Assembly: GCA_021792655.1 (NCBI GenBank)
Contig: JAJYUG010000004.1
Location: 3,022-50,881 of the forward strand
Reading direction: 5' to 3'
Length of the DNA: 47,860 nt
From: Thermoplasmata archaeon
GTDB taxonomy: Archaea > Thermoplasmatota > Thermoplasmata > Thermoplasmatales > Thermoplasmataceae
Below, piece by piece: positions 1,702 to 32,214 of this stretch (positions are counted from its first letter, which is position 1; the number at the start of each line of letters is the position of its first letter). Below the pieces are notes generated by a model, which worked only from the letters and a program-made list of their open reading frames with translations, ran no database searches and was not told where the DNA came from. The position numbers were made by a program, and so were the translations under genes.

Positions 1702-2454
1702 TTGCCGGAAAGACAAGGAGTAAGAATTCCAACCAACGTCAGAAATTACTCACCAAGGATCGGAGGCATGGACGCAAGGAAGGTCTCGGCGATTGCACTT
1801 CTCTTTATCATTTCGGCGATAATTTTTCATTTCAGCATGCTGATCTCCATTCTTGTTGCGTCCTGTGGGTCCATTTTCACTCTTTTTCCAATCGATAGCG
1901 GATTCCTGCCTTCAGCCGTCATGAATAGGTTTTATACCATGCTTCATCGGAAAGAGGGAAACCTGAGGTACGAGATAACTCTAGACTGCAGCGATGAAAT
2001 CTGTATATTCCGGGGTAAAAACAGGCTGTTCTCAGTCATCAGTGCAACTGGCTTGCCATATCAAATGATGAAATCAGGTGAGATAATTGCAGAGGCTTCA
2101 GCGATTTCCAGATCAATTGATCAATTGACGGCAGAGGTAACTGTTATGGCTCTGCCTGTTAAAGCAGACCCGTCCAGTTACATGACAGGGTCCTCCGATG
2201 AAGATTCCATGGATTATGATGGACTGGTCTCATTTCTCGTAAAGGATTCGATCTTTTACAAACCATATTTTTTCCTCAGTTTCAAGGTTAAGCGGGGGAT
2301 GTTCTCGCAGCACGACACCATAAGGAAAGAAACGGAGGAATTAAAGGAGAATCTGCAAAGGGCAGGTCTGGTCGTGGAAGTAATAAGTGAAGTTGAAGAT
2401 GGCATGGAGATTTTGAAACAATTGTCGCAGGATGCCTTTAGCGGGATTGAGTGA
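1702..2454 (+). CDS. PrgI/VirB3-like membrane protein fused to a VirB4 N-terminal-like domain
   Basis: This 250-residue protein begins (TTG start, with AGGAGGG upstream) with an R-I-P-x-N-V-R-N-Y-x-P segment and then a hydrophobic hairpin at about residues 28-60. That is the hallmark of PrgI-family (VirB3-like) conjugation proteins. The remaining 170 soluble residues include a KPYFFLSFKV strand followed by a long amphipathic helix and G-L-x-V-E, resembling the N-terminal domain of VirB4/TraC ATPases. The next gene supplies the rest of VirB4 and overlaps by four bases. The likely role is an inner-membrane anchor that docks the ATPase. Family assignment is from motif memory. Confidence 0.6.
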   Translation: MPERQGVRIPTNVRNYSPRIGGMDARKVSAIALLFIISAIIFHFSMLISILVASCGSIFTLFPIDSGFLPSAVMNRFYTMLHRKEGNLRYEITLDCSDEICIFRGKNRLFSVISATGLPYQMMKSGEIIAEASAISRSIDQLTAEVTVMALPVKADPSSYMTGSSDEDSMDYDGLVSFLVKDSIFYKPYFFLSFKVKRGMFSQHDTIRKETEELKENLQRAGLVVEVISEVEDGMEILKQLSQDAFSGIE

Positions 2455-4070
2455 ATAAGGTGGGGGATAAACAGAGATTTTTAGTCAAGCAACGTTTTAC
2501 AATATCTGGACCTCAGGTAAGACTAGGGCAATATCTGGCTTTCCTGTCGCTTGTTGACGGAGACTATGACTCTGGGGGGATGTACTGTTCACTACTGGAA
2601 TCAACAAATGTGCGCATGATGCAGAGAGTATCGCTTTCATCTATCCCTGAAAATACTTCAGAAAGAATCTTAAAGAGGCTTCATGCTTCACGCAAGTCTG
2701 AAATGAGATACGAGGACAAGAAGGACAGAACCAGGGCGCTTCGCTTAAGGAGGCATGTGGAAACCCTGGAATCACTTCTCAGAAGCATTTCGGAAAATGG
2801 GCGCAGGGTGTACGGAACAGATGTTCAGATCGTCCTCGAAAGCGACCATCCGATAGAATTATCCAGGAGTGCAAGAAGAGTCATCGGGTCACTGGAATAT
2901 CTCGGGCTAACCATGAAAATCAAACGGAGAATAACTCGGAATGAGATTGCGTCCTCACTGGGGCCGTTCAGTGATGCGAATGGGCGCTACCTGATGGATT
3001 CCATGTCGGTAGCCAGCATACTTCCGATTCATTTTGAACCAGTCCCTGAGAGTGGAGGGGTGGCCATTGGTGTGGACGACTTGACAGAAAAGCCGGTATT
3101 CATAAACATATTCGGTGGAAATTCATTCAACGTGCTGTCTTTCGGTGAAACTGGTTCTGGCAAATCTTTCTTTACTAAGCTAATGGTAAGAAGGGCGATA
3201 CTGACTTCCGCCGTAAATAATGTATACATAATCGATCCACTGGGTGAGTATGATGCCGGCATTTTTCCAGGAGGAGGTGCAGTTGTTAATGTAGGGAGTG
3301 GAGAATACGTAGATCCATTGAGAATTTCCAGCAATAATCCCGAAACGGTCGATGCTTTTATCTCAATGCTTATACATTTTGACAAGGGAATTGCAGATGA
3401 TGTCAGGGTTCTAAGGCATTACCTGTCTGAATACCTTCACGCTGAGGGACTCAAGACCATGCATGGCTTCCTTCAGCTACTGACAAATGACAAGGTTATC
3501 CCAAGTTCAGTCAAGTTGATATCAGAACTGCTATCGTCCGTTTTCATGCATGAAGTTGTTATCCAGGAGAGGCAGGTGATCATATTCAGGCCAGGACAGC
3601 TCGTAAGTTCGAGCAATGAACCCTCAATGATCTCCATACTGCTGTCAATCCTTTCCATGATAACTTCTACTCACGGCAAGAAGATTGTCCTGGTGGATGA
3701 AGCACATAATCTGATAGACAGTGCAGAGTGCTCAAAGCTCCTTGACACGCTTACCCGCCATTCGCGTCATTACGGCACGGCCATTATCAGCATGACTCAG
3801 AATCCGGAGGACTTTTTCATGAATCCAAGATCCCATTCTCTTCTTCTGAACAGCTCAAGGATCTTTGGCTTCCGTACCAAATCGCCAAATTCGGAGGGTT
3901 TTTCAATTCCCGGGTATGATGGGTTTCTCGGTGTAAATTTCGCTCCATTACTTGGAGGAAGATCAGATCCTTACTCAGAGTGTTTTTTCTCATATGAAAA
4001 TCATCTCCGGAAAGTCAGGATATTATGCACAGAGAGAGAAAAGTCAATAATCGATGCCAGGAATGCCTAG
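2451..4070 (+). CDS. VirB4/TraC-type (HerA-FtsK superfamily) conjugation ATPase
   Basis: A 539-residue ATPase expected to power pilus assembly or DNA transfer at the membrane. It has a Walker A motif G-E-T-G-S-G-K-S at residues 232-239, a Walker B strand I-V-L-V-D-E-A-H at 412-419, and the VirB4-typical sensor motif T-Q-N-P-E-D-F near 449-455. Residues 1-200 match the middle part of VirB4 (the lead-in to the G-V-D-D-L-T-E-K-P segment before the P-loop). The usual first domain is missing and seems to sit on the preceding protein. The GTG start overlaps the previous stop (GTGA). No VirD4 coupling ATPase or relaxase is seen in the window, so this may be a Ced-like import system or a partial element. 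Confidence 0.8.
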   Translation: MNKVGDKQRFLVKQRFTISGPQVRLGQYLAFLSLVDGDYDSGGMYCSLLESTNVRMMQRVSLSSIPENTSERILKRLHASRKSEMRYEDKKDRTRALRLRRHVETLESLLRSISENGRRVYGTDVQIVLESDHPIELSRSARRVIGSLEYLGLTMKIKRRITRNEIASSLGPFSDANGRYLMDSMSVASILPIHFEPVPESGGVAIGVDDLTEKPVFINIFGGNSFNVLSFGETGSGKSFFTKLMVRRAILTSAVNNVYIIDPLGEYDAGIFPGGGAVVNVGSGEYVDPLRISSNNPETVDAFISMLIHFDKGIADDVRVLRHYLSEYLHAEGLKTMHGFLQLLTNDKVIPSSVKLISELLSSVFMHEVVIQERQVIIFRPGQLVSSSNEPSMISILLSILSMITSTHGKKIVLVDEAHNLIDSAECSKLLDTLTRHSRHYGTAIISMTQNPEDFFMNPRSHSLLLNSSRIFGFRTKSPNSEGFSIPGYDGFLGVNFAPLLGGRSDPYSECFFSYENHLRKVRILCTEREKSIIDARNA

Positions 4071-11702: not shown

Positions 11703-12062
11703 TCATACAGCCCCAATTATGCTTTTTCTTTTCAGGCTGTAGACCCTCAGAAGCTTTTCCTTCGCAGTCACTATCATCTCTTTGTCATTTGTCAGAAGGG
11801 CACATTTCAAGCTCTGAGCAAGGTCAATTATTGCGGAATCGCAGGCTCCAGTCACTGCTGCCCTCTCAAACCTGGCGGCAATGGCAGCTGCAGCCTTTGC
11901 CTCGTTTATGCGACTGGAAAGGCCATGAAGTTCATTAATCACACAATCAGGTACAATAATCCTGCTAAAGCCAATCGCAGAAAGCTGCTTCCCTAAGTCA
12001 GTTTTGTATCTGACAGAATATATCAGGGCGTTAGAGTCAACAACGATTGAGTCTGTGGTCAT
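11703..12062 (-). CDS. PIN-domain nuclease
   Basis: A 119-residue single PIN domain. All acidic positions of the magnesium-binding site are visible: D9 (V-V-D-S-N-A), E44 (I-N-E-L), D75 (A-C-D-S-A-I-I-D) and D93 (T-N-D-K-E). It belongs with the archaeal Fcf1/VapC9-like PIN proteins. No antitoxin gene is adjacent: the upstream gene is aIF2-beta, one base away, and ribK is downstream. A housekeeping role in rRNA or tRNA processing, tied to translation genes, is therefore more likely than a toxin role. The specific substrate is unknown. Confidence 0.82.
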   Translation of the reverse strand: MTTDSIVVDSNALIYSVRYKTDLGKQLSAIGFSRIIVPDCVINELHGLSSRINEAKAAAAIAARFERAAVTGACDSAIIDLAQSLKCALLTNDKEMIVTAKEKLLRVYSLKRKSIIGAV

Positions 12063-12063
12063 C

Positions 12064-12681
12064 TCAGGATTTTGACACTATCTCCGCTATGGCTGTGCCG
12101 TTTCTTATTTTCTTTATTACTACGCGAAGGTTCTCCCCCTTCTTCCCACCTGCAACGATTATTGAATATCCCTTGTAGCTTGTTCTGCCTTCACCAGACT
12201 TCCCTACTTCGTTAATCGTTATATTGTACTGCTTCCCTTCCTCAAGGTCAGCTTCATTGGATTTTGAGTCTCTTGTGAGCTTAATAGGATGTTGCGCGCC
12301 GCATGCTTTGCAGGTAAGGAGATCTATTCTTCCAACTCTCTGGATCACAGTGTCCGGTGACCCGCACTCGTAACACTTTACGTAGGAATCCATGTACTGG
12401 CTGAATTTCTTTGATATCTGCGAGGCAGATAATTTACGGTTTATTATGAGCCTTCTTCCGTTTATTGTTACCCCGATTCCAAACTCCTTCATCAGGTATT
12501 TGGCTATAACCTGGGGCTCCCTGTTTATGAGATCTGTGATATCGAGAAAATTCCTTATTATTGTGGACTTTCCCTCAAAAATGACGTCAGGTTCAGGGAT
12601 TTTAAGCCTGCTATCACTGGTGTTTGATTTTGCAAGCATGCCCGATGCTTTCTTGAGTAAATCTTCATAATTATCTGACAT
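12064..12681 (-). CDS. Translation initiation factor aIF2 subunit beta with C-terminal TRAM domain
   Basis: A 205-residue protein. The eIF2-beta/eIF5 core spans residues 30-95, and the zinc ribbon has C103, C106, C124 and C127. After this the chain continues for about 60 residues ending in a basic beta-barrel-like segment typical of a TRAM RNA-binding domain, a fusion also known in some other euryarchaea. aIF2 delivers initiator tRNA to the small subunit. A TATA element at 12703-12711 lies 26 bases before the ATG at 12681, so this start is preferred over the ATG at 12693. Confidence 0.92.
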   Translation of the reverse strand: MSDNYEDLLKKASGMLAKSNTSDSRLKIPEPDVIFEGKSTIIRNFLDITDLINREPQVIAKYLMKEFGIGVTINGRRLIINRKLSASQISKKFSQYMDSYVKCYECGSPDTVIQRVGRIDLLTCKACGAQHPIKLTRDSKSNEADLEEGKQYNITINEVGKSGEGRTSYKGYSIIVAGGKKGENLRVVIKKIRNGTAIAEIVSKS

Positions 12682-12702
12682 AAATGATTCCATATGGTAA
12701 CT

Positions 12703-12717: not shown

Positions 12718-13073
12718 GCCAAAGAACCAATTTAACGCTCCCTTGGTAAAAGAACAGGTTCCACAGATAAGCTGTTTATAGGGAGAAGGTGGTTCTTTGA
12801 GGGTTTTATTACAGAAAGCTAATTATTCGAAGCCTTACCATTTACAGGATATTTATCGGCGTAACTTGAATCAAAAAAAAAGAGGGTTAAGTATAACACA
12901 CATACATTTATTATACATTATATAAATGTACCAATATTTTACAGTATGACATTTTAGGAAGCTGCTGTATTTATAGAAACTCTTACAAAACACGTTAAAT
13001 GTGTGGCGCTCAGTGTATACATTATGTCTTACCTATTTCCTGCTAGACTTTCTAAAATGTACATACAAAGCAA
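12718..13073. other. Long intergenic region between divergent aIF2-beta and RHH genes
   Basis: About 350 bases without a convincing gene. The left half is ordinary, with an A9 run and a GGGTTAAG stretch near 12870-12895. The right half is very A/T-rich and carries repeated TACATT/AATGTA words and a perfect long inverted repeat, described separately. A reading frame that enters from 13003 upstream of the RHH domain is not conserved-looking and is probably untranslated. Confidence 0.5.
12903..13061. promoter_or_regulatory. Candidate operator array of TACATT/AATGTA words
   Basis: A perfect inverted repeat TACATTTAT (12903-12911), ten bases, ATAAATGTA (12922-12930) encloses another TACATTA at 12914-12920. 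Further copies are TACATTA at 13018-13024 and AATGTA at 13056-13061 (in the palindrome ATGTACAT), plus a near-copy at 12998. RHH regulators usually bind arrays of short inverted or direct repeats, and the next gene encodes an RHH protein, so self-regulation is a reasonable inference. Confidence 0.4.
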
Positions 13074-13083
13074 ATATTTATAT
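13074..13083 (+). promoter_or_regulatory. TATA box upstream of the RHH gene
   Basis: ATATTTATAT is centred near 13079, placing a transcription start near 13105. A second A/T-rich element (AAAATATAT, about 13089-13096) would give a start near 13119. Either argues against translation from the ATG at 13096. Confidence 0.4.
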
Positions 13084-13119
13084 ATTGTAAAATATATGAA
13101 CTGTAAGAGGCAAACCAGG

Positions 13120-13536
13120 TTGGAAAACAAAGACACTAAGCTGACAATCAGAATCACGGAGAGCGAAGTCGAGGAGATCGACAGCTTTCTAAAAGGAAAT
13201 CCAAGATTCTCAAGCCGTTCCGAATTTATCAGGTTTGCAGCACTCGATTATGTTGCCCAGAATAGGATAAAGATACTAGGACCCAACGAAATTTCCCTCA
13301 AACTCGATAAAATCATGGAACAGACACTGGCTTTTGCGATAAGGGAAGGCTTCTTTAACGACAGGAATGACGCCATAATGGAAATTTTGAATGAGGCGCG
13401 GTCAAGTGGCCTAATATCAAAGATCATCGATGCCAAGAACAGCGAACTGAAGGCTGTAATGGACAGGTCTCGTGAAATCCAGCCAGAAAGCAACACATCC
13501 GAGCTTAAGACCAGAAGCAACCAGGACCAGAAATAG
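13120..13536 (+). CDS. Ribbon-helix-helix transcriptional regulator (CdrS-like candidate)
   Basis: A regulator of about 139 residues. An RHH DNA-binding domain is at the N-terminus: strand K-L-T-I-R-I-T, then E-V-E-E-I-D-S-F and the F-S-S-R-S-E-F-I-R-F-A-A helix. A second helical region with R-N-D-A-I-M-E-I-L-N-E-A may be a degenerate repeat or oligomerisation part, and the tail is polar. The start is uncertain: TTG at 13120 has AGAGG nine bases upstream and fits the promoters better than ATG at 13096. It is 22 bases from the FtsZ-like gene. In haloarchaea an RHH regulator (CdrS) is co-transcribed with ftsZ2, which suggests an analogous cell-division role here. Confidence 0.75.
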   Translation: MENKDTKLTIRITESEVEEIDSFLKGNPRFSSRSEFIRFAALDYVAQNRIKILGPNEISLKLDKIMEQTLAFAIREGFFNDRNDAIMEILNEARSSGLISKIIDAKNSELKAVMDRSREIQPESNTSELKTRSNQDQK

Positions 13537-13558
13537 GATATTTGGAAGGTGTGACTGA

Positions 13559-14350
13559 ATGTTTAGGAAGAATATGGAAACGGAAGGCAATTACGTAAGG
13601 GAAAGAATCTGCAAGATAGCGAAAGAGTACGGTTCTGACAGGTATGACAGTGCATTGATAGCCATAGGTAACGCTGGTGAAAGGGTCTTAAAGAAAGTCA
13701 TACCAATCGAAGAGGCCAGGGTATTTTATCACGCCGTGAACCACAACAGGAGCAATGTGAACACCGCATCGGGTTCTGGCAATGATGTCGCATACATGGA
13801 AATTTATTCTCACAGGCCAATGGAAATAAAAATTGTAAACATCGGAGACGACGCATTTGGTGACTTTAACTTCCAGACTGAAAAATATTCCGGAACACAG
13901 TTTGAAACAACCTCTGCTGATTTTTCGGATTCACAGGCTGACAGGGAAAAAACAGCATTACGGATATACACCGGCCTACTTAGATCCGATTCCTACATAC
14001 TGCTAAGCGCATTCGGCGGAAAATATTCGCAGGAAATGCACACCCAGCTTGCCCGAGTTATGATAAAGAGAGGCATAGCCGTCCTAAACGTTGTGATAAA
14101 ACCTTCGAGATTGTACCCACGCGAAAGGGCTGCTGCTGAGATCGGGATAAAAAAACTAAAAGTTCTTGGAGCCAGGGTAAAAGAAATAGATAATGATGAA
14201 TACGAGCTGAACGTCGCCGGGAATTTTACAAGATACAGTTCAGAGAGCCAGTGGCCCTCCATCAATACCAAGATTGCAAGGGAAGTTGAAATATACCTGA
14301 TGCGGCTTTCAGCGGCTTCTGCGGACGCAAGGAAAATAGTTGCAAGTTAA
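13559..14350 (+). CDS. Divergent FtsZ/tubulin-superfamily protein without GTPase signature
   Basis: A 263-residue protein. Residues 141-217 align by eye with the ftsZ product of this same window: S-D near the start, then F-G-G-K-Y-S-Q (152-158) where FtsZ has M-G-G-G-T-G-T, then G-x-x-V-x-x-V-V-I-K-P-x-R, A-A-E-I-G-I-K-K-L, and I-D-N-D-E-Y-E-L in place of I-P-N-D-K-L-L-E-L. The N-terminal loop I-A-I-G-N-A-G replaces F-G-T-G-G-A-G. The signature needed for GTP binding is lost and the C-terminal activation domain is absent, so GTP-dependent polymerisation is unlikely. GGAAGGTG serves as ribosome binding site, and the gene follows the RHH regulator. Confidence 0.65.
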   Translation: MFRKNMETEGNYVRERICKIAKEYGSDRYDSALIAIGNAGERVLKKVIPIEEARVFYHAVNHNRSNVNTASGSGNDVAYMEIYSHRPMEIKIVNIGDDAFGDFNFQTEKYSGTQFETTSADFSDSQADREKTALRIYTGLLRSDSYILLSAFGGKYSQEMHTQLARVMIKRGIAVLNVVIKPSRLYPRERAAAEIGIKKLKVLGARVKEIDNDEYELNVAGNFTRYSSESQWPSINTKIAREVEIYLMRLSAASADARKIVAS

Positions 14351-14398: not shown

Positions 14399-14866
14399 TC
14401 AGAGTTGAGATAAAACTTCCTTTTCTGTCATGTTTCGTTCGCAGTAAAAGCATCTGAGAATAAGTGGCCTTTCAGATACAACAGAGAACTCACTGTTTAC
14501 GGGTTCTTTCACATTTGTGATACATCCCTGGTTCGGACATTTTAGTATACCTACAATGGTCTTTGTGAGCTTTACAGTGAACTTCTCCTTTATCTGGTAG
14601 TTGCTTACGATGCTTATGGTAGCATCTGGTGCAACAAGTGAAATCCTGTCCAGATCATCTCTGTTCAGATATTTGTTTTCAACTTTAATTACGTCTTTCT
14701 TACCAAGTTTTTCACTCTGTACACGCATTGCTATGGTTGTCGAGACATCCGGGTTATTTTCGATCTTGAGTATTGATACTACTCTCAGAGCTTTCCCGGC
14801 CGGCACATGATCGATCACAGTACCGTCCTTAATCTTAGAAACCTTCAATGTTGTTTCCATGTTCAC
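14399..14866 (-). CDS. pyrI: Aspartate carbamoyltransferase regulatory chain
   Basis: A 155-residue PyrI. The N-terminal allosteric domain has the V-I-D-H-V-P-A-G-K-A motif (residues 15-24). The C-terminal zinc domain has C-P-N-Q-G-C and later C-F-Y-C, which supply the four zinc ligands. It modulates the catalytic chain in response to nucleotides. Its start overlaps the pyrB stop by four bases (ATGA), so translation is coupled. Confidence 0.95.
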   Translation of the reverse strand: MNMETTLKVSKIKDGTVIDHVPAGKALRVVSILKIENNPDVSTTIAMRVQSEKLGKKDVIKVENKYLNRDDLDRISLVAPDATISIVSNYQIKEKFTVKLTKTIVGILKCPNQGCITNVKEPVNSEFSVVSERPLILRCFYCERNMTEKEVLSQL

Positions 14867-15780
14867 GCCCCCAGAATCATTGAGAGAAGAGCCATCCGTA
14901 CAGGAATACCGTAAAATGCCTGCTTGAAATATGCTGCGTTCGGCAGGTAATCAACTTCCGGCTTTATTTCGTCCACTCTCGGGAGAGGATGCATTATTAT
15001 AGCATTCTTCTTCATTTTCCCGACGGTATCCGCATCAATTGAATAAAGGCCTATAACGCTGTTATATTCGTTCTGATCAGTGAACCTTTCTTTCTGGATC
15101 CTTGTTACGTAAAACACATCGAACTCATCCATTTTCTCGTCGAGATTTTCTCTGGATGTCACCTTGATGTTCTTCCCCAATCTTTCCCTGATATGTTCCG
15201 GCATCTTGAGAATCTGAGGGGATATAAGGGTCACTTCAACATCGAAGTTCGAGAGAGCCAGAAGGAGCGAATGAACAGTTCTCCCATAACGTAAATCACC
15301 AACCATTGCTATTCTTAATCCGTCGATCTTGCCGAAATACTTTCTCATGGTGTAAAGATCAAGCAGTGTTTGTGTAGGGTGCTGGCCTGAACCGTCTCCG
15401 GCATTTATCACTGGTTTGGTTGAAAATTTGGAGGCAAGCCTGGCAGCGCCTTCAAGGGGATGCCTAATCACTATAACGTCTGAATAAGACTCCGCCATTC
15501 TGATAGTGTCCGCAAGAGTTTCACCCTTGGCGACAGATGAGGATTTGACATCCGAGACTGAGATCACAGATCCACCAAGCCTATGCATAGAGGACTCAAA
15601 TGAAAGCCTGGTCCTGGTGCTTGGTTCATAGAACAGAGTGGCCATGATCTTTCCGTTCAGCATTTCAAGCTTTTTGCCGGCTTCCAGCGCGTTCAGCATC
15701 CTGTCTGATACAGAAAAAATCTCGGATATATCTGATTCGGACACATCGTCGATTGAGACTATGCTTTTATTCTTCAACAT
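14863..15780 (-). CDS. pyrB: Aspartate carbamoyltransferase catalytic chain
   Basis: A 305-residue transcarbamylase catalysing the first committed step of pyrimidine synthesis. The carbamoyl-phosphate motif F-Y-E-P-S-T-R-T-R-L-S-F-E is at about residues 50-62, with S-V-A-K-G-E-T near 80, H-P-T-Q near 130, and H-P-L-P-R near 260. The ATG at 15780 is preferred to a TTG at 15804 because the family begins at about this position. pyrI follows directly. The gene upstream is separated by a T-rich stretch, so pyrB probably has its own promoter. Confidence 0.95.
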   Translation of the reverse strand: MLKNKSIVSIDDVSESDISEIFSVSDRMLNALEAGKKLEMLNGKIMATLFYEPSTRTRLSFESSMHRLGGSVISVSDVKSSSVAKGETLADTIRMAESYSDVIVIRHPLEGAARLASKFSTKPVINAGDGSGQHPTQTLLDLYTMRKYFGKIDGLRIAMVGDLRYGRTVHSLLLALSNFDVEVTLISPQILKMPEHIRERLGKNIKVTSRENLDEKMDEFDVFYVTRIQKERFTDQNEYNSVIGLYSIDADTVGKMKKNAIIMHPLPRVDEIKPEVDYLPNAAYFKQAFYGIPVRMALLSMILGA

Positions 15781-15805
15781 CAGGATGGAGAATCCAGAGA
15801 GCAAT

Positions 15806-31122: not shown

Positions 31123-32214
31123 GTGGTTCGTTCTCAGGATACATACTCCGAAATCAACAATGATGAATCCGATACCTCGCTTACATCGGACGAAGAGCTG
31201 ATGCAGATCATCGAAAAGAGGAGCCCCAAGATCAAGATATTTGGGACCGGTGGAGCAGGTTCAAACACGATTACCAGGCTTGCCCGCGAAAGAATTCCGG
31301 GTGTTGAACTCATTGCATGCAATACCGACGCACAGCACCTGCTGCGTACCAAGGCAAATGGAAAAGTTCTTCTTGGTGAGAACCTTACGCGGGGACTTGG
31401 GAGCGGAGCTAACCCACTCGTAGGAGAGGAAGCTTCCAAGGAGTCGGAGGGGGAAATTATCCGTCGTCTCAAGGGTTCTGACCTGGTGTTTATAACCGCT
31501 GGAATGGGAGGTGGGACGGGAACCGGTTCTGCGCCTCACATTGCAAAGATCGCCAAGAGCCTCGGAGCTGTCTCAATATCCATAGTGACGCTTCCTTTCC
31601 GGTCCGAGGGGAGCGGCAGAATGCAGAATGCCAGGTGGGGTCTCAGAAAGGTTATCAATTATTCTGACACCACCATAGTTATTCCCAATGACAAGCTTCT
31701 CGAGCTTGTACCAAAGCTCTCTCTTCAGAAAGCATTCAGGTACGCGGACGAGATAATTGTGCGTGCCATAAAAGGCATTGCGGAATTGATCACAAAGCCC
31801 GGTCTCATCAACCTGGATTTCAATGACCTTAAGTCCATCCTGAAGAATTCTGGAATGGCTATGATAGGCATCGGGATTGGAAACGGCGATCCCGGTGTGA
31901 GAGTGAGGAGTGCCATCCAGAACGCACTTGATTTTCCATTCATAAAGGCAGACCTTTCCACAGCCTCTGGGGTGATAATAAACATAACCGGAGGAAAGGA
32001 CCTGCAGATACAGGAGGCAAGCATAGCATCAGAGATGATCAAGGCAGTTTCAAATAAGTCGACAAAGATCATCCTCGGCATAAATATAGATCCTTCGCTT
32101 GAATCAAAGGTGCAGGTTATGCTTGTTGTTACTGGAGTGTCTTCTGAGGTTATAAACGAGTTACTTGGCGGAAGCGGAAAAGAAGGGGACAGCGGTATAG
32201 ATATTGTCAGGTAG
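31123..32214 (+). CDS. ftsZ: Cell division protein FtsZ
   Basis: A 363-residue FtsZ, the tubulin-like GTPase that forms the division ring. The glycine-rich N-terminal loop F-G-T-G-G-A-G-S-N is at residues 40-48, the tubulin signature G-G-G-T-G-T-G at 129-135, and I-P-N-D-K-L-L-E-L near 177. Residues 1-35 are a disordered acidic tail, and the C-terminus is Gly-rich. It starts at GTG 31123 with an A/T-rich promoter about 30 bases upstream. It provides the internal reference for the degenerate FtsZ-like protein at 13559-14350. Confidence 0.96.
   Translation: MVRSQDTYSEINNDESDTSLTSDEELMQIIEKRSPKIKIFGTGGAGSNTITRLARERIPGVELIACNTDAQHLLRTKANGKVLLGENLTRGLGSGANPLVGEEASKESEGEIIRRLKGSDLVFITAGMGGGTGTGSAPHIAKIAKSLGAVSISIVTLPFRSEGSGRMQNARWGLRKVINYSDTTIVIPNDKLLELVPKLSLQKAFRYADEIIVRAIKGIAELITKPGLINLDFNDLKSILKNSGMAMIGIGIGNGDPGVRVRSAIQNALDFPFIKADLSTASGVIINITGGKDLQIQEASIASEMIKAVSNKSTKIILGINIDPSLESKVQVMLVVTGVSSEVINELLGGSGKEGDSGIDIVR

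Follow-up and report, generated by a model that had tools for sequence, protein, structure and literature searches.

Our analyses centre on two adjacent genes within a window of 47,860 nucleotides (the whole stretch of DNA that was analysed), which comes from a Thermoplasmata genome of 1.36 Mb in 84 contigs. The first gene encodes a tandem RHH protein, and the second encodes its partner, a protein related to FtsZ. The principal features of the locus are as follows:

13058-13067 (no strand assigned): palindromic operator TGTACATACA, the predicted RHH binding site, separated from the TATA box by 9 bp and the sole exact copy in the window.
13077-13084 (+ strand): TATA box TTTATATA of the RHH-partner operon, identified from the sequence; its spacing from the operator recurs in most relatives.
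13120-13536 (+ strand): tandem RHH gene, an ORF with a TTG start coding for 138 aa, in which alignments and an AlphaFold model show two beta-alpha-alpha units followed by a helix at the C-terminus.
13559-14350 (+ strand): FtsZ-like partner, an ORF coding for 263 aa, lacking the C-domain and with a decayed loop; identified by PF00091 matches of its orthologues, hhalign, AlphaFold with Foldseek, and dN/dS.

An earlier note on this DNA had placed these two genes on a common strand with a gap of 22 nt between the RHH gene and the partner ORF, and this placement is correct. The RHH ORF is also open from an ATG at 13096; of the two, the TTG (13120) is preferred because relatives start there and because the ATG lies only 11 bp past the TATA box. 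ORFs on the opposite strand occupy positions 11703-12693 upstream of the RHH gene, and pyrI and pyrB (14399-15804) lie downstream of the partner in convergent orientation. The locus is chromosomal and adjoins pyrBI in most of the relatives read; no plasmid match was found for the pair, and a plasmid location is therefore not supported. The window also holds a true FtsZ, as the earlier note had claimed, at 31123-32214 (PF00091 148.9 bits, PF12327 80.1 bits). A further ORF at 2451-4070 resembles VirB4/HerA-type ATPases (GETGSGKS); ahead of it, at 636-1697, a multi-spanning membrane protein is encoded, and this may be a secretion- or conjugation-like locus.

The AlphaFold model of the RHH protein (pLDDT 78) places helices at residues 14-26 and 33-48 in the first unit and 64-75 and 82-96 in the second, followed by a helix at 98-120. 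In an orthologue, Pfam RHH_8 matches unit 1 and RHH_1 matches unit 2, both under the curated cut-off, and in a related type A RHH protein (see below) RHH_1 matches twice, at 42.7 bits. A Foldseek search with the monomer model returned weak RHH matches only (ParD, prob about 0.3), which is unsurprising for a fold in which the strand pairs between two units. Against the CdrS family model NF058555, which was built for haloarchaeal CdrS, the protein scores 14.5 bits (cut-off 100) and thus falls outside that family. Almost all genomes of the order have the RHH gene; the module is syntenic, present in one copy per genome and under strong purifying selection. The RHH gene lies directly upstream of the partner in every relative whose contig extends that far, its end falling anywhere from about 22 nt before the partner start to a short overlap with it. 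The linkage of the two genes, whose absence from relatives would have told against the pairing, is thus that of obligate neighbours.

As a single sequence, the window partner has no significant match in Pfam, NCBIfam or PDB, and a PHROGs search gave nothing useful; matches to APOBEC (E 0.03) were rejected as noise. A family search across 117 genomes of the order (threshold E 1e-3) identified matches in 46, with one copy per genome, and the Pfam Tubulin profile PF00091 run on these genomes found the same loci, one at 35.6 bits (cut-off 33; the protein of this locus scored by itself gives 35.9 bits) and others at 20-27 bits, with two loci aligning along profile positions 2-189. In hhalign comparisons the family matches FtsZ at 89% and C-domain-less FtsZs at 98.8% over 208 columns, control families reaching at most 2%. 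An AlphaFold2 model of the partner built from 27 sequences (pLDDT 72, pTM 0.73) was compared with the PDB by Foldseek: of the 50 best matches, 49 are structures of FtsZ and the remaining one is the tubulin PhuZ (E 2.5e-7 to 9e-6, prob 1.00, TM about 0.5). The likeness to FtsZ that the earlier note had reported over some 77 residues is therefore not due to chance, and its extent was understated: it runs through the entire N-domain (about 210 columns). No other fold appears among the 50 best PDB matches, and sequence comparison and structure modelling together confirm 13559-14350 as a member of a conserved family with a predicted FtsZ/tubulin N-domain fold. The window partner and its nearest relative give a dN/dS ratio of 0.07, and two further pairs give 0.03-0.06; purifying selection of this strength indicates that the partner protein is functional. 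In one genome (G069, L203:1949-2660) a frameshift interrupts the partner ORF next to an intact RHH gene, reflecting either decay or a sequencing error.

The changes that separate the partner from FtsZ were located in a joint alignment of 58 canonical FtsZ proteins, 29 class-wide C-domain-less proteins (type B, defined below) and 28 members of the window's family. Three of them map to the window as follows:

14009-14041 (+ strand): altered T4 (GTP phosphate) loop, AFGGKYSQEMH replacing GMGGGTGTGSA; Q158 and H161 are invariant in the family.
14189-14197 (+ strand): T6 guanine-contact region, DND (residues 211-213) replacing PND, with Asn212 kept.
14264-14266 (+ strand): H7 base-contact position, Asn236 replacing the invariant Asp of FtsZ.

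The motif GGGTG[TS]G is present in 0/28 family members and in 58/58 canonical FtsZ, the latter having been gathered with this motif as one criterion; GGG[TM]G[TS]G is intact in 17 of the 29 type B proteins. In the family, T4 has changed from GGGTGTG to FGG-x-F-x-Q-x-M-H, in which Gln158 and His161 are each present in 28/28 members. T1 keeps Gly37, Ala39 and Gly40 with its Asn changed to Arg, T2 (NTD) and T3 are lost, and Pro182 of T5 is present in 28/28. The PND of T6 has become DN[DEQ], where the P-to-D change is found in 28/28 family members and 21/29 type B proteins and the Asn is kept in 26/28 of the family. The H7 position holds D in 58/58 FtsZ and N in 14/29 type B proteins and 28/28 family members. 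The T7 motif is present in 55/58 FtsZ, 0/29 type B and 0/28 family proteins, and no PF12327 match was found in the window partner (263 aa in all), nor any C-domain match in type B. The loss of GGGTGTG and of the C-terminal domain claimed earlier both hold, T7 is absent as well, and the altered T4 loop and missing T7 agree with the earlier view of a non-GTPase in giving no sign of a working GTPase.

The invariant residues of the family, among them Asn236, Gln158 and His161, concentrate at T1, T4, T5, T6 and H7; in the alignment, conservation is focused on the former nucleotide face, and the parts serving polymerisation and hydrolysis are gone. The partner is accordingly predicted to be unable to form normal filaments; it may bind a ligand, perhaps with a changed base preference. 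With FtsZ1 and FtsZ2 (PF00091 plus PF12327) it has in common the N-domain fold and the T1, T5 and T6 positions, and it differs from them in lacking the C-terminal domain and T7 and in its altered T4, T3 and H7. The proteins FtsZl1 and FtsZl2 are likewise divergent, FtsZ-like and without the usual C-terminal domain; however, GGGTG(S/T)G is intact in them and their C-terminal regions are coiled-coil or ~300 aa long, and the neighbours of FtsZl1 are vWA, kinase and GTPase genes rather than an RHH gene (PMC2875224).

Our survey of distribution covered the class Thermoplasmata, in which the family profile matches 173 of 400 genomes, some of the weak matches being canonical FtsZ. In 40 such loci that were read, the proteins from other families are mostly FtsZs without the C-domain, of about 230-325 aa, and a tandem RHH gene immediately precedes them. 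When 60 FtsZ-family loci of 14 genomes were sorted, four kinds emerged:

Kind 1: canonical FtsZ without an RHH gene.
Kind 2 (type A): full-length paralogue of ~350 aa with a weakly similar RHH protein, the nearer counterpart of cdrS-ftsZ.
Kind 3 (type B): paralogue without the C-domain, with a strong RHH match.
Kind 4: divergent family without an RHH gene.

In the phylogenetic tree, a branch sets canonical FtsZ apart, and the proteins of the window's family form one clade (support 100). This decayed family joins the type B proteins by a long branch whose position has weak support, and a topology in which all C-domain-less proteins form one clade is not rejected (p-AU 0.58). In one genus (g3, probably Cuniculiplasma), FtsZ is present together with a partner of 235-255 aa which is linked to the family solely via an intermediate genus, g5 (hhalign 80% for g3-g5 and 92% for g5-family). 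Judged by sequence, the window's family is a decayed-loop version of a class-wide pair consisting of a tandem RHH protein and a C-domain-less FtsZ. We found no description of such a pair in the open papers searched. A divergent FtsZ-like family without an RHH neighbour was also observed, once in each of six genomes (L214, L221, L227, L243, L255, and L266); in it AGLGG[VE]xG replaces AGLGGGTGTG and traces of the C-domain persist.

The palindrome TGTAYRTACA is present in exact form in 10 of 23 loci of relatives (shuffle mean 0.08, maximum 1 of 300) and with at most one mismatch in 18 of the 23 (shuffle mean 1.5), in most loci at 9-11 bp from the TATA box. In class-wide type B operons a related dyad, TGTCNNACA, is found at 19 sites in 33 loci (0.3 expected), and GTCNTAC or its complement occurs 45 times (1.7 expected). 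The location of the predicted operator at the operon's own promoter makes autoregulation the natural reading. In three genomes of the genus, the sole exact copy of the palindrome common to them is at this promoter, and a search with it in these genomes revealed no wider regulon for the operon RHH.

An RHH gene that comes first, a short overlap or gap, and a palindromic operator of autoregulatory type are also what would be expected of a toxin-antitoxin-like module, in which the RHH protein would be the antitoxin and the FtsZ fragment a toxin that poisons division. Toxin-antitoxin modules are patchy in distribution, whereas here there is one syntenic copy per genome, an almost order-wide RHH gene and strong purifying selection, and none of the copies is on a plasmid; we consider this explanation very improbable. 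The pair might instead segregate a chromosome or replicon, the RHH protein binding a centromere and the partner acting as a cytomotive protein in the manner of ParR-ParM, SegB-SegA or TubR-TubZ. An RHH protein and a cytoskeletal-fold protein share one operon with predicted binding sites at its promoter, as TubZRC (type III) and ParMRC (type II) combine a DNA-binding protein with a cytoskeletal-fold partner, and many type B partners keep GGGTGTG. The partners in TubZRC and ParMRC are, however, polymerising NTPases on plasmids, whereas the partner described here is chromosomal, near pyrBI in most relatives read, and without a polymer interface; no tubulin-type polymer is expected because the C-domain and T7 are absent. 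In place of the RHH protein TubZRC has TubR, a winged-helix protein. The window's family also has one or two dyads and no iteron array, and a segregation function thus appears improbable.

The arrangement invites comparison with cdrS-ftsZ2 of haloarchaea and other Euryarchaeota, in which the small RHH protein CdrS accompanies a full-length FtsZ2 (PMC7439475, PMC8406309). In both cases an RHH gene lies immediately upstream of a co-directional FtsZ-family gene, and the operator found here, about 45 nt before the expected transcription start, is similarly placed to those of CdrS in H. volcanii, which lie at -41 to -110 (PMC7439475, PMC8406309). In contrast to cdrS-ftsZ2, the RHH protein is tandem, and C-domain, T7 and GGGTGTG are all missing from the partner. 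CdrS also binds at ftsZ1 and other genes, whereas TGTAYRTACA and TGTMNNNACA are absent from all 38 ftsZ promoters read in the family, in a search by these two patterns, although degenerate sites may be present.

A different dyad is present at these promoters. In many genomes of the family, TGTCNNACA dyads, mostly TGTCWGACA, are found at the promoter of a second canonical ftsZ, with 12 sites at the 38 ftsZ promoters (0.4 expected), and a copy or near-copy often overlaps the start codon. A different tandem RHH gene (~100-120 aa) also has TGTCWGACA at its promoter in most of the FtsZ-containing genomes read, and in FtsZ-less genera the dyad is missing there. The possibility that the sites at the second ftsZ are bound by the operon RHH was rejected because they match the predicted operator of this different protein. 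Since it has a dyad in common at its own promoter and at that of the second ftsZ, the ~100-120 aa protein is the better candidate ftsZ regulator, and the regulator of ftsZ is probably this separate RHH rather than the operon RHH. The analogy with cdrS drawn in the earlier note thus stands as regards an RHH gene upstream of an FtsZ-family gene, but the separate tandem RHH, which in other families accompanies a full-length FtsZ paralogue, fits the role of CdrS better. The promoter sequences point to a predicted cdrS-like ftsZ regulon in Thermoplasmata, apparently dismantled upon the loss of ftsZ. The TGTCWGACA dyads were read at L002:1090-1270 (contig C3 of the window's own genome) and L279-L298.

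A PF00091 search of three genera of the window's family (g2, g4, and g13) gave no match. FtsZ, SepF and PRC-barrel proteins are all reported as missing from Picrophilus, Acidiplasma and Ferroplasma (PMC10936438), and we infer that g2, g4 and g13 fit the published FtsZ-less Acidiplasma, Ferroplasma and Picrophilus. Most genomes of these genera keep the RHH gene (E about 1e-33 to 1e-38 with the RHH profile); in one fragmented genome only the other RHH is visible. Among the promoters read in them, the exact operator is present in one, and the rest show only degenerate or related dyads. An ORF of about 160 aa overlaps and follows the RHH gene and is under purifying selection (dN/dS 0.09-0.20 in the pairs measured). 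Its best alignment to the partner is colinear, and its homology is unproven because the hhalign probability is 2-3% with both separate and merged profiles. In another family (f11, presumably Methanomassiliicoccales-like), three complete or near-complete genomes that were read (G210, G221, and G247) have no canonical full-length FtsZ; the FtsZ-type genes in these genomes (L184, L186, L187, and L244-L246) are an RHH-linked C-domain-less FtsZ with GGGTGTG intact and an RHH-linked divergent paralogue.

These lineages bear on whether the partner acts upon FtsZ itself, capping or poisoning its filaments through the nucleotide face while the RHH protein merely sets the dose. The fold and the absence of T7 and the C-domain match what a cap would require, and within the window's family almost every FtsZ-positive genome with a completeness of 90% or more has a recognisable partner, as against 0/12 FtsZ-negative ones, so that its loss alongside FtsZ fits an FtsZ-directed role. 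This co-loss is weak evidence because losses of FtsZ are few and clustered, and the diverged nucleotide face would weaken a contact of the FtsZ-FtsZ type. Moreover, the RHH gene outlives FtsZ, and in the f11 genomes read the pair persists, its GTP loop intact, without canonical FtsZ. Both observations weaken the earlier proposal of a division regulator or FtsZ decoy and make a pure decoy less likely, we infer, than a co-regulator of the RHH protein; overall, we regard capping of FtsZ as unlikely.

We therefore favour, tentatively and as something short of probable, an autoregulated operon whose FtsZ-derived partner serves as a co-regulator of the RHH protein. This reading builds on the fold, the conservation of the operon, the operator, the purifying selection, the loss of T7 and the C-domain, and the conservation of pocket residues, all as seen in the sequences. 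The operon would probably have originated from one resembling cdrS-ftsZ, and its partner would have lost the C-terminal polymerisation domain and T7 of FtsZ and, in the window's family, had its phosphate loop remodelled. The RHH protein would bind TGTAYRTACA just upstream of its own TATA box and control its own operon. The partner may bind a nucleotide-like ligand, the base pocket being kept (with the Asp-to-Asn change) and the phosphate loop altered, or another protein through the old nucleotide face, and would modulate the RHH protein as a co-regulator of the sensor type rather than as a filament. Against a co-regulator, a shared operon can merely co-express two proteins, and no wider regulon is visible, since exact operators in the genus are essentially at the operon itself alone.

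A broader reading, possible though doubtful, is that a tubulin-superfamily protein left the cytoskeleton and came to serve a DNA-binding protein as its ligand-sensing co-regulator, in an operon that Thermoplasmata retain even without ordinary FtsZ, perhaps including the probable Picrophilus, for which no known division genes are reported. If this is right, there would be a graded series running from an RHH protein with full-length FtsZ through loop-intact and then loop-decayed C-domain-less partners, perhaps to a remnant in FtsZ-less archaea, and archaeal FtsZ operons would have a built-in regulatory function outliving the division ring, a proposition that can be tested. The analyses also name a conserved candidate gene pair for lineages whose division is unexplained (viz. 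Picrophilus, Acidiplasma, and Ferroplasma). Thermoplasma appears to carry the pair, in genomes which we take to be those of Thermoplasma acidophilum (G097) and T. volcanium (G101), and cultured species are thus probably open to study.
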